Origin: Ulvibacterium sp.
GTDB lineage: Bacteria; Bacteroidota; Bacteroidia; Flavobacteriales; Flavobacteriaceae
Direction of reading: 5' to 3'
DNA: 64,000 nucleotides
Assembly (NCBI RefSeq): GCF_028285715.1
Contig: NZ_JANQOO010000010.1
Coordinates: 124,001 to 188,000, forward strand
Shown one piece after another: positions 43,312-47,312 of this stretch. Numbering within the stretch: the first letter of the stretch is position 1; every line of letters begins with the position of its first letter. The notes beneath the pieces are model-generated. The model saw nothing but the letters and a program-made list of their open reading frames with translations, was not told where the DNA came from and made no database searches. The position numbers and the translations under genes were made by a program.

Positions 43312-43644
43312 CTACTTCCCCAACATCAGCAACTCGTTGCAGCGTACTTCGGTGATGTATCGCTTTTCCCCTTCCTTGGTCTCGTAGGAGCGATGTACGA
43401 GTTTCCCTTCCACGGCCACTTGCTTTCCTTTGGTGAGATAGTTCTCCACAATCTCCGCGGTCTTGCCCCAGGCCACAATATTGTGCCACTGGGTGTCCTC
43501 TACTTTTTCACCCTGTGCATTCTTGTAGTTTTCACTGGTGGCAATGGAAAATTTGGCCAGCTTGCTTCCGTTTTCCAAGTTTACGATTTCAGGATCTTGT
43601 CCCAAGTTTCCAATCAACTGTACTTTGTTTTTAATTGCGTTCAT
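43312..43644 (-). CDS. ssb: Single-stranded DNA-binding protein, short form without acidic C-terminal tail
   Basis: KVQLIGNLGQDPEIVNLENGSKLAKFSIATSE; DTQWHNIVAWGKTAEIV; ends LLMLGK. Confidence 0.92.
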   Translation of the reverse strand: MNAIKNKVQLIGNLGQDPEIVNLENGSKLAKFSIATSENYKNAQGEKVEDTQWHNIVAWGKTAEIVENYLTKGKQVAVEGKLVHRSYETKEGEKRYITEVRCNELLMLGK

Positions 43645-43752
43645 ACTACTAATTTTTAAGATAAAACAGTTAATGCCATCGAACCTCCCTGATTCGACAA
43701 GGCAAACATAGAACGTTGTGAAAAAAGAATTCGGTTAGGAAATATTTACTTT

Positions 43753-43780
43753 CGTTTGTAAACGTTTGTAGTCGTTTGTA
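43753..43780. repeat. Three direct CGTTTGTA iterons at 10-bp period
   Basis: CGTTTGTA at 43753, 43763 and 43773. Confidence 0.8.
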
Positions 43781-43839
43781 AACTTTTATGTTTCTTTATA
43801 TCAATTAATTACATTCCAATTTAAAATATCAGGATTTAT

Positions 43840-43862
43840 CCTATAATGTATGTAGATGCCAA
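43840..43862 (+). repeat. 23-bp dispersed element, copy 1 (diverged palindrome)
   Basis: CCTATAATGTATGTAGATGCCAA. Confidence 0.65.
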
Positions 43863-43892
43863 GTTTTCTTATATTTAAGATAAACCAATCTT

Positions 43893-44321
43893 ATGTCCTA
43901 CATAAAAGATTTCTTTGAAAATGAGCCATTAAAAGCGATTTCGTTTAGCATATTGCTTATGCCTTTTTGGTATTTTTCCATATTCCTACTGAACCATGAA
44001 CTTTATAAAAAATTGGATGCAACTCTATTGATTGTTATGTGTTTTGTAATTAGTGTATCCTCTTGCATTATTCTTTCCGTGGCTTATCGTCTCGATGATG
44101 ACAAAGACGACCCCAAAGATATAATCACTATCATAGGTATATCTTCTTTGGTTCTTTGGGCTTGGAAAATTATTCTTCTTTTTGTGGTTTACTCCTTTTA
44201 TTTCCTATTTCAAATGCATATGTATTTATATTGGTACATAACTATTTACTTTGCTTTGCTTGTTCTATTTTTGATTATATCATTCCTAAAGAATTACAAA
44301 AAACAAAAGTTCAAATATTAA
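43893..44321 (+). CDS. Small multi-pass membrane protein, unknown
   Basis: 142 aa with about four hydrophobic segments. Confidence 0.6.
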   Translation: MSYIKDFFENEPLKAISFSILLMPFWYFSIFLLNHELYKKLDATLLIVMCFVISVSSCIILSVAYRLDDDKDDPKDIITIIGISSLVLWAWKIILLFVVYSFYFLFQMHMYLYWYITIYFALLVLFLIISFLKNYKKQKFKY

Positions 44322-44571
44322 AATAGCGACACAGATTTAGTCAAAAATTTTATTGTCTAAAAATTTCCTAAGAATAATACTAACGACCTAATCTTTGACC
44401 GGCGTGGCTGCCATCTTTAGGTTAACCTAGAGCATATGAAAAGTTATATTCCTTAAATTTGAACACGTAGGAATTCTTTATGACTTATTTGGCTGTACTG
44501 GCGGATTAATGTTTGATTTTTAAACTGGGAAACCACCTTGTCAACCCATAGATTTTTAGTATTTTAAAGGT

Positions 44572-44727
44572 ATGGATTTTGATGGAGCTTTGGATATATC
44601 GTATGTGCTTTTATTTATTGGGATTGCACTTCTTATAATTACTGTAGTGGCGTTTATAGTCGGTAACCGTAATAAAAGTAGTAGTGATTTCAGAAGTAGA
44701 AGTAGGCATGGTAAGCGGAGGTTGTAG
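44572..44727 (+). CDS. 51-aa single-TM micro-protein with basic tail (below the ORF-track cutoff)
   Basis: Manual translation MDFDGALDISYVLLFIGIALLIITVVAFIVGNRNKSSSDFRSRSRHGKRRL*. Confidence 0.4.
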   Translation: MDFDGALDISYVLLFIGIALLIITVVAFIVGNRNKSSSDFRSRSRHGKRRL

Positions 44728-44918
44728 TTATAACCTACTAAATTCTACTTTTGGATGTATTGAAGATTGTCAGACTTCTTCTTCAATAGAATAGAAACTA
44801 TTGCGCCACAACTCCTTAGATTCGAATCCAACAATTACATCCTTAACTTTATAATGGGAGATACGATTTAAAGGGTAGAATGAAATCCATTTTATCTTTT
44901 TTCTAATTTTCATCTTGT

Positions 44919-44941
44919 CCCATATTGTATATAGGTGCCAT
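44919..44941 (+). repeat. 23-bp dispersed element, copy 2
   Basis: CCCATATTGTATATAGGTGCCAT. Confidence 0.8.
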
Positions 44942-44956
44942 AGAGATAGGGAGCTA

Positions 44957-45175
44957 TTAAAAAGTGAGGGTATTGGATACCTTCAAAAGATATAACACAA
45001 GTACGGTCCCAATCGTTCCAAAGAACAGTATTCCCTGCACATAGTAAAGTCTGTTTCCCCAGCTCTTCAGCCAATCAGAACCAAGTTTGTTCTTGACAAA
45101 TCCCCTTAAAAAACTGTGGCAAACAAGACAAAATACTATAAAAACCACTATTACAAGTAAAATTTCTCCCATCAT
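44957..45175 (-). CDS. 72-aa membrane protein, unknown
   Basis: Two hydrophobic segments: MMGEILLVIVVFIVFCLVCHSFLRGF...YYVQGILFFGTIGTVLVLYLL. Confidence 0.5.
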   Translation of the reverse strand: MMGEILLVIVVFIVFCLVCHSFLRGFVKNKLGSDWLKSWGNRLYYVQGILFFGTIGTVLVLYLLKVSNTLTF

Positions 45176-45291
45176 TACTTTTCATCGTGATTTTGATCTT
45201 CTTTTGGTCTTGAGGCAAACTTCCTAGCCAAATAATTCCTAGAGGCAAGGTCTAAGTTTGCGGCGGACAATATGTATATCAGATAGCGCAT
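45175..45291 (-). CDS. 38-aa micro-ORF overlapping (TAATG) the 44957-45175 gene
   Basis: Manual translation MRYLIYILSAANLDLASRNYLARKFASRPKEDQNHDEK*; stop shares bases with the next start. Confidence 0.35.
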   Translation of the reverse strand: MRYLIYILSAANLDLASRNYLARKFASRPKEDQNHDEK

Positions 45292-45320
45292 AATTAAATT
45301 TACGAAATATTTCTATTTGT

Positions 45321-45343
45321 CCTATATTGTATATAGGTGCCAA
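45321..45343 (+). repeat. 23-bp dispersed element, copy 3; perfect palindrome CCTATAT-TGT-ATATAGG
   Basis: CCTATATTGTATATAGGTGCCAA. Confidence 0.85.
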
Positions 45344-45358
45344 TCCTCTATAAATTTG
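45327..45358 (+). promoter_or_regulatory. Promoter candidate TTG-N21-TAAATTTG overlapping palindrome copy 3
   Basis: TTG 45327-45329 lies in the palindrome centre; TAAATTTG 45351-45358. Confidence 0.5.
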
Positions 45359-45393: not shown

Positions 45394-46341
45394 ATGAAAT
45401 ACGGCATACTCATAGCGACCTTAATCTTGATTCTTGGATGTGATTCAAGAACAATGAGCGAATATGTGCTGGATGAAAGGGGTTTGGTGCCCGAGGGAAT
45501 CGCCTATTCAAAAAAGAAGGATGCCTTTTATTTGACCAGTGTGGCCAAATCCAAAATAGTGGAGGTAGATAGAAAATCCGGAGAGCAAAAAGATTTTATA
45601 CGGGAACGGGAATTTGGATATACCCCGGGAGTCGGGATTCTGGTGGATGATACCCGCAATCTGCTTCATGCCCTTGGCGGATATTATATGTACAAAGATT
45701 CCCTTCCATCACTGTTCACCTTCGATATCCATACCAAAAGACTGTTGAAAAAATATGACGTGACCGATGCGGGGGAACATTTCCTAAACGACCTCATCCA
45801 AGATGACAAAGGAAATCTATACCTCACGGATTCAAAGGACGCATCCATCTATATACTAAAACCTGAAACGGATTCCTTGGAGCTATTTTTCAAGTCCTCA
45901 GAAGTTGAATTTCCCAATGGAATTGCCATTTCGGACGACAATAGCAAATTGTATATCGCATCTTTTTCCAAAGGTGTAAGAATCCTCGATATTTCGACAA
46001 AAAGAATTTTAAATGACCCGGACACCTTGGGTATATCTCAAGGAATAGACGGATTGGAGTTTTATAAAGGTCATTTGTATGCCATCCAAAATGGGGTTAG
46101 GGCAAATACATTCAACTTTAGAAAATTGGTCCTTGACCCAACACAGGGAAAGATTGTAAAGGCCAAGGTCTTGGATAGCCACACACCGAGGTTGGATTTG
46201 CCGCTGACTTTTTGCCTGGTCGAAAATGAGGCGGTAGTCATTGGAAATTCCAATCTGCAATATTTAAATCAAGAAACGTTCAAATTCGTTGCATCGGATA
46301 CGATTTCAAATACCAAATTGTTGGTGTATGCCCTTGAATGA
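45394..46341 (+). CDS. SMP-30/gluconolactonase/NHL-like beta-propeller lipoprotein
   Basis: Lipobox LILGC; LVPEGIAYSKKKDAFYLTSVAKSKIVEVD; EFPNGIAISDDNSKLYIASF. Confidence 0.8.
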   Translation: MKYGILIATLILILGCDSRTMSEYVLDERGLVPEGIAYSKKKDAFYLTSVAKSKIVEVDRKSGEQKDFIREREFGYTPGVGILVDDTRNLLHALGGYYMYKDSLPSLFTFDIHTKRLLKKYDVTDAGEHFLNDLIQDDKGNLYLTDSKDASIYILKPETDSLELFFKSSEVEFPNGIAISDDNSKLYIASFSKGVRILDISTKRILNDPDTLGISQGIDGLEFYKGHLYAIQNGVRANTFNFRKLVLDPTQGKIVKAKVLDSHTPRLDLPLTFCLVENEAVVIGNSNLQYLNQETFKFVASDTISNTKLLVYALE

Positions 46342-47148: not shown

Positions 47149-47312
47149 TAGAACCAATTGCCAAGAAGCCGTCATTCTCTTCGATTAACTAATATGTGCC
47201 TCGTTCACAAGCATCGGAAAATGCCATAAGATAGACTAGGTAGAACTACGCAAGCTTCTAATCCTAACCATACGAAGGTGAAGCACCTATATATTGCTTA
47301 TCTTTAAATCGA

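Follow-up and report, generated by a model that had tools for sequence, protein, structure and literature searches.

In a 64,000-nucleotide stretch of the Ulvibacterium sp. genome (hereafter the window), a short palindromic repeat occurs three times within 1.5 kb beside ssb, which raises the question of what the repeat is and how three copies came to lie at one locus. The copies had been reported as dispersed 23-mers. We confirmed their positions (43840, 44919 and 45321) and found every copy to be on the + strand; they are far beyond chance, no such 23-mer having arisen in 100 shuffles. The perfect palindrome described for copy 3, CCTATATTGTATATAGG, is likewise present. A search of the whole 5.0-Mb genome with up to 3 mismatches returned only the three window copies, and a weaker match that the earlier note had listed at 47283 does not score as a copy. 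The repeat recurs in other Flavobacteriaceae, and comparison with these relatives extended it to a 25-bp unit, TTGTCCyATAwTGTATATAGGTGCC, which starts 4 bases before the reported 23-mer and ends at GCC; the 23-mer is thus real, but the conserved unit is longer. No Rfam match was obtained for the repeat region. In terms of the 25-bp unit, the first copy (43836..43860, +) has 5 mismatches to the consensus and orthologues in both other genomes of the genus, the second (44915..44939, +) matches the consensus at 25/25 positions, and the third (45317..45341, +) has 1 mismatch and lies 52 bp before a lipoprotein gene. The first is the oldest and most decayed of the window copies.

In its left half, TTGTCCyATAA, the repeat agrees at conserved positions with the XerC arm of the family's chromosomal dif site, and this match led us to locate the Flavobacteriaceae dif as TTTGTaCtATAA-TTTATA-TTATGTaAAAT (full site TTTGTaCtATAATTTATATTATGTaAAATAGAAT), which was recovered in 359 of 400 family genomes (C9:699944 in the Ulvibacterium genome G000; L123, L124, L126 and L139-L168). 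We therefore weighed a dif-like Xer site, at which XerC/XerD would carry gene cassettes between direct repeats in the manner of pdif modules or dif-using elements, a reading that the direct-repeat arrays with exchanged contents described below would also suit. However, the XerD arm (TTATGTaAAAT) is absent from the repeat, and the true dif is a separate site that sits elsewhere than the repeat locus in the three congeners. The inverted pairs and 8-bp duplications around a DDE transposase that we describe next are a signature of transposition rather than of Xer recombination, and once they appeared the XerCD/pdif cassette was dropped as a candidate. The Xer reading is therefore very improbable and already largely refuted. 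That the repeat is the chromosomal dif itself was rejected because GC skew gives no terminus signal at the locus and the real dif lies elsewhere. An integron cassette array was rejected as well, since no integrase is near: no match to the tyrosine recombinase domain PF00589 was found in the window, and the nearest on the contig is at C4:13503, about 154 kb away.

To identify the repeat, we scanned named genomes for the 25-mer and then searched 400 Flavobacteriaceae genomes. The pattern scan found it in Flagellimonas, Muricauda, Allomuricauda, Arenibacter and one phage contig, and ends at up to 3 mismatches were present in 17 of the 400 sampled genomes, a search that contributed G163, G215, G263 and G238. 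In relatives, the 25-mer or a close variant forms inverted pairs (GGCACC...GGTGCC, 25-bp ends with 0-4 mismatches) bounding elements of 0.7-4.2 kb, most of which carry an IS1595 transposase. Intact members, of 2.9-4.2 kb, combine a Zn-ribbon/DDE transposase with cargo genes, whereas derivatives of 0.7-1.0 kb hold cargo only. Intact relatives are flanked by 8-bp target duplications, seven perfect and one matching at 7/8 positions. The perfect ones are TACAAGTG in [Muricauda] okinawensis (L192), ACTATTTA in the phage (L195), AATTTAAA in Muricauda sp. CAU 1633, where the ends fall in the adjoining loci L188 and L182, TTTTTAAT in G163, AGTAAATA in G263, AAATATAA in G238 and CTTATTTA in G215; the 7/8 case is Flagellimonas hadalis (L179). 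The elements of L179 (730 bp) and L195 (957 bp) have cargo between inverted ends and duplications but no transposase. A single IS1595 transposase appears in the ORF lists of the elements; in L192, L182 and L237-L240 this protein contains the DDE_Tnp_IS1595 domain PF12762 (E 1e-36 to 4e-40) together with the N-terminal zinc ribbon PF12760. Duplications of 8 bp, and an N-terminal zinc finger outside the IS1016 group, are published hallmarks of the IS1595 family (PMC8101967, PMC12561309). Because of the inverted pairs, the 8-bp duplications, the PF12762 and PF12760 transposases and the published hallmarks, the repeat is, judged from sequence, the 25-bp terminal inverted repeat of IS1595-family (DDE) elements of Flavobacteriaceae.

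The phage contig (L195 2685-3641; IMG/VR 3300031772_000762) is from a tailed phage and holds its 957-bp cargo-only derivative between structural genes, making such a phage a possible vehicle for transfer. Two small protein families without a Pfam name, of 68 aa and 70-76 aa, recur in several elements (L239 3387-3617 and 4645-4851; L240 4493-4914; L182 19-438; L244 1097-1318) and may be considered candidate target selectors or regulators. PADLOC, run on ten cargo and unit proteins, returned nothing but a weak NYN nuclease match in L192.

The earlier note had offered two explanations, an operator fused to the -33 region of a small local regulon or a mobile repeat bearing a promoter. The spacing and the box that it described are found in the sequence at copy 3, where the TTG lies 21 bp before the -7 box TAAATTTG. 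The palindromic core of the repeat and the -7-like box at 21 bp after copies 1 and 3 are what an operator would have in its favor, but copy 2 lacks such a box and the genes beside the ends run in both directions. We extended the comparison to 50 distinct ends, drawn from many genomes. Only one of them, window copy 3, is followed by an exact TAnnTTTG box at 17-24 bp from the central TTG (mean of 0.16 with shuffled flanks; p about 0.15), and two, window copies 1 and 3, are followed by a box with one mismatch, against 3.4 expected from shuffled flanks. Boxes are thus no more frequent at the ends than in shuffled flanks, and what the ends hold a fixed position to is a motif upstream of ssb, not the promoters of the genes they flank. 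An operator is accordingly an extremely improbable explanation. The mobile alternative was correct as to the kind of repeat, since the repeat is a terminal inverted repeat of an IS1595-family element. A hybrid promoter at copy 3 may possibly have arisen by chance and would be no property of the repeat.

Many of the genomes with elements have the insertion just upstream of the same short ssb, which in the window (43312..43644, -) encodes a single-strand binding protein of 110 aa (PF00436, E 4e-35). Upstream of it lies the conserved triple motif TACAAACGACTACAAACGTTTACAAACGA (43752..43780, -), which would be the reference point for insertion; it has a single match in the Ulvibacterium genome, and all 12 motif loci that were retrieved are upstream of ssb. 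This triple repeat of ACAAACG (43752-43780) is deeply conserved before the 110-aa ssb in many Flavobacteriaceae genera and looks like a putative binding site of a regulator. In 8 of 10 cases, 23-24 bp separate the near end of the element from the motif: 24 bp in L179, L193, L203 (G294), L206 (G263) and L214 (G215), and 23 bp in L194, L197 (G238) and L198 (G202; a degenerate end). When ends were placed uniformly over 150 bp, even 5 of 10 fell within a 2-bp window only once in 200,000 trials. The transposase is on the ssb strand at all six readable loci (L192, L193, L196, L197, L206 and L214). In G215 two elements stand in tandem, in the order element A, R-end, CTTATTTA, L-end of B, element B, R-end, CTTATTTA, motif, ssb; here the second insertion reused the identical 8-bp target. 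Counting against targeting, the near end is closer to the motif in L192 (14 bp) and L196 (11 bp), and some insertions are found away from ssb, in contig4 of CAU 1633, in a phage and in a TrkH-like gene of G002.

In a rival reading, ordinary IS1595 elements with no dedicated targeting piled up before ssb in an AT-rich gap that tolerates them, and their shared position reflects either common ancestry of a few old insertions or selection that removes insertions nearer to ssb. In its favor, the family typically makes AT-rich 8-bp duplications (PMC12561309), copies are also found at other sites, and some of the host genomes are related. However, the complete ssb-inserted elements have transposases that share only 67-79% identity and cargo that differs, so these insertions are not one recent event; their duplications are also intact and different. 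Further points against it are that 8 of 10 genomes have the same distance to within 1 bp, that the tandem elements of G215 used a single 8-bp target twice, that ends at up to 3 mismatches occur in only 17 of the 400 sampled genomes, and that several genomes have both motif and ssb but no ends within about 1.5 kb. We consider passive accumulation unlikely.

Next to the insertion site, G263 and [Muricauda] meishanensis have what looks like a truncated ssb, and a divergent second SSB gene, preceded by an HTH-like ORF, lies downstream in G263 and G310 (loci L239 7050-7958 in G263, L187 7593-7680 and L245 7305-8275 in G310).

In the window itself, the three copies are single ends in direct orientation, with no partner end and no target duplication among them, and no convincing left end was found when duplicated octamers were used to look for one in the window and its congeners. 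With ssb read on the + strand, only the ends distal to ssb are left and the near, transposase-bearing halves are gone. The PF12762 transposase is found in none of the three genomes of the genus; a C-terminal transposase fragment of about 51 aa survives in G002. The window copies are therefore relics and do not make up a complete element. G001 (assigned to Ulvibacterium marinum) has, at the same locus, three copies and a degenerate one, and G002 (uncultured Flavobacteriaceae 2-963) has five and a partial one, with more elsewhere in its genome. All copies at the locus in the window and the congeners point away from ssb, as direct repeats. DNA homology among the three congeners (G0, G1 and G2) extends across ssb and the first copy and breaks off there; copies also mark the start or end of other homologous blocks, and the content between copies differs from genome to genome. 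G310 and G390 have similar arrays, in which distal ends and small genes lie next to the ssb motif.

What ties the window to the intact elements is the 142-aa membrane protein gene at 43893..44321 (+), a relic cargo gene whose product shares 40% identity over 143 aa with a cargo protein of the intact, ssb-inserted G238 element (L240:3209-3640), where the homologue likewise adjoins the distal end. The second window copy is the distal end of the relic unit that holds this gene and a 51-aa small membrane ORF (44572..44727, +), a possible cargo gene that has no Pfam match and by eye resembles a small ORF in a G002 unit. A 72-aa small membrane protein (44957..45175, -), also possible cargo, has a homologue in a G002 unit (L037:5876-6100; 32% over 68 aa, E 1e-11). 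The SMP-30-like lipoprotein gene at 45394..46341 (+) is outside any element and is the conserved host flank beyond the array; its DNA is about 81% identical to that of the corresponding locus in G001 and G002. Away from this locus, on contig 22 of G002 (L038 8051-8925), a unit with a DUF2391-type gene lies inside a TrkH-like gene, with a truncated end as its left junction; the G001 copy of that gene is uninterrupted at the insertion point, though it also looks degraded.

Taken together, we consider it probable from these sequence comparisons that the repeat is an IS1595 end, that insertion at ssb is targeted by the motif and that the window holds a relic array. The Zn-ribbon of the transposase or a small accessory protein would recognize the ssb motif, or else a host protein bound to it, and the element would insert at a set distance that leaves ssb unbroken, in the manner of Tn7 at glmS. 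At the window locus, elements would have landed one after another and their near halves, with the transposase, would have been lost, so that single ends and cargo genes stayed behind as a relic array that no longer moves. If cargo was kept while the transposase half was lost, the distal-end arrays of the window, G310 and G390 would be accounted for. Three observations count against this explanation: no window copy has a partner end or a target duplication, the direct-repeat orientation of the window and congener copies is unlike the product of simple IS insertion, and the oldest copy is the ssb-proximal one, whereas growth next to ssb would make that copy the youngest.

Insertion sequences are usually regarded as loosely targeted. 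The kind of mobile element is known, and what would be new, and can be tested, is the apparent Tn7-like preference of an IS1595 lineage for the ssb promoter region; no report of oriented, fixed-distance IS1595 siting upstream of ssb was found in the literature searched. We put at about even the chances that a DDE IS lineage evolved its own Tn7-like targeting, with insertion 23-24 bp from the ssb motif, one orientation, target reuse and ordered cargo arrays without an integrase. If so, an inserter specific for position and orientation with a single transposase would be a simple counterpart of Tn7, a route that gathers cargo genes at one chromosomal spot and possibly a natural 'safe-harbour' insertion tool for marine Bacteroidota. 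It would also explain the variable locus upstream of ssb in Muricauda, Flagellimonas, Ulvibacterium and their relatives.

Among known systems, the intact relatives share with the IS1595 family the PF12762 and PF12760 transposase, the terminal inverted repeats and the AT-rich 8-bp duplications. The ssb-inserted elements differ in their preferred, oriented siting at a fixed distance upstream of ssb and in cargo arrays with single ends, and the window copies in having no transposase, partner ends or duplications. Mobile insertion cassettes are IS ends that carry cargo and no transposase, and the cargo-only elements of L179 and phage L195, between inverted ends, are of this design, although their ends are of IS1595 type and L179 sits at ssb. 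Like pdif/dif modules and integron arrays, the window has small exchanged genes separated by direct-repeat sites, but these sites are transposon ends with no XerD arm, and the window contains no integrase gene. Tn7 inserts beside glmS with a fixed orientation, at about 25 bp from the site that TnsD binds (PMC2918618), and the ssb-inserted elements have in common with Tn7 at attTn7 a set distance from a conserved sequence, one orientation and an adjoining gene that is left unbroken. They differ from it in having one IS1595-type transposase instead of TnsABCD, an 8-bp duplication, a position upstream of ssb rather than downstream of glmS and tandem reuse of the target. By this analogy, the ssb-inserted elements would resemble Tn7 in the way they work without being members of the Tn7 group.
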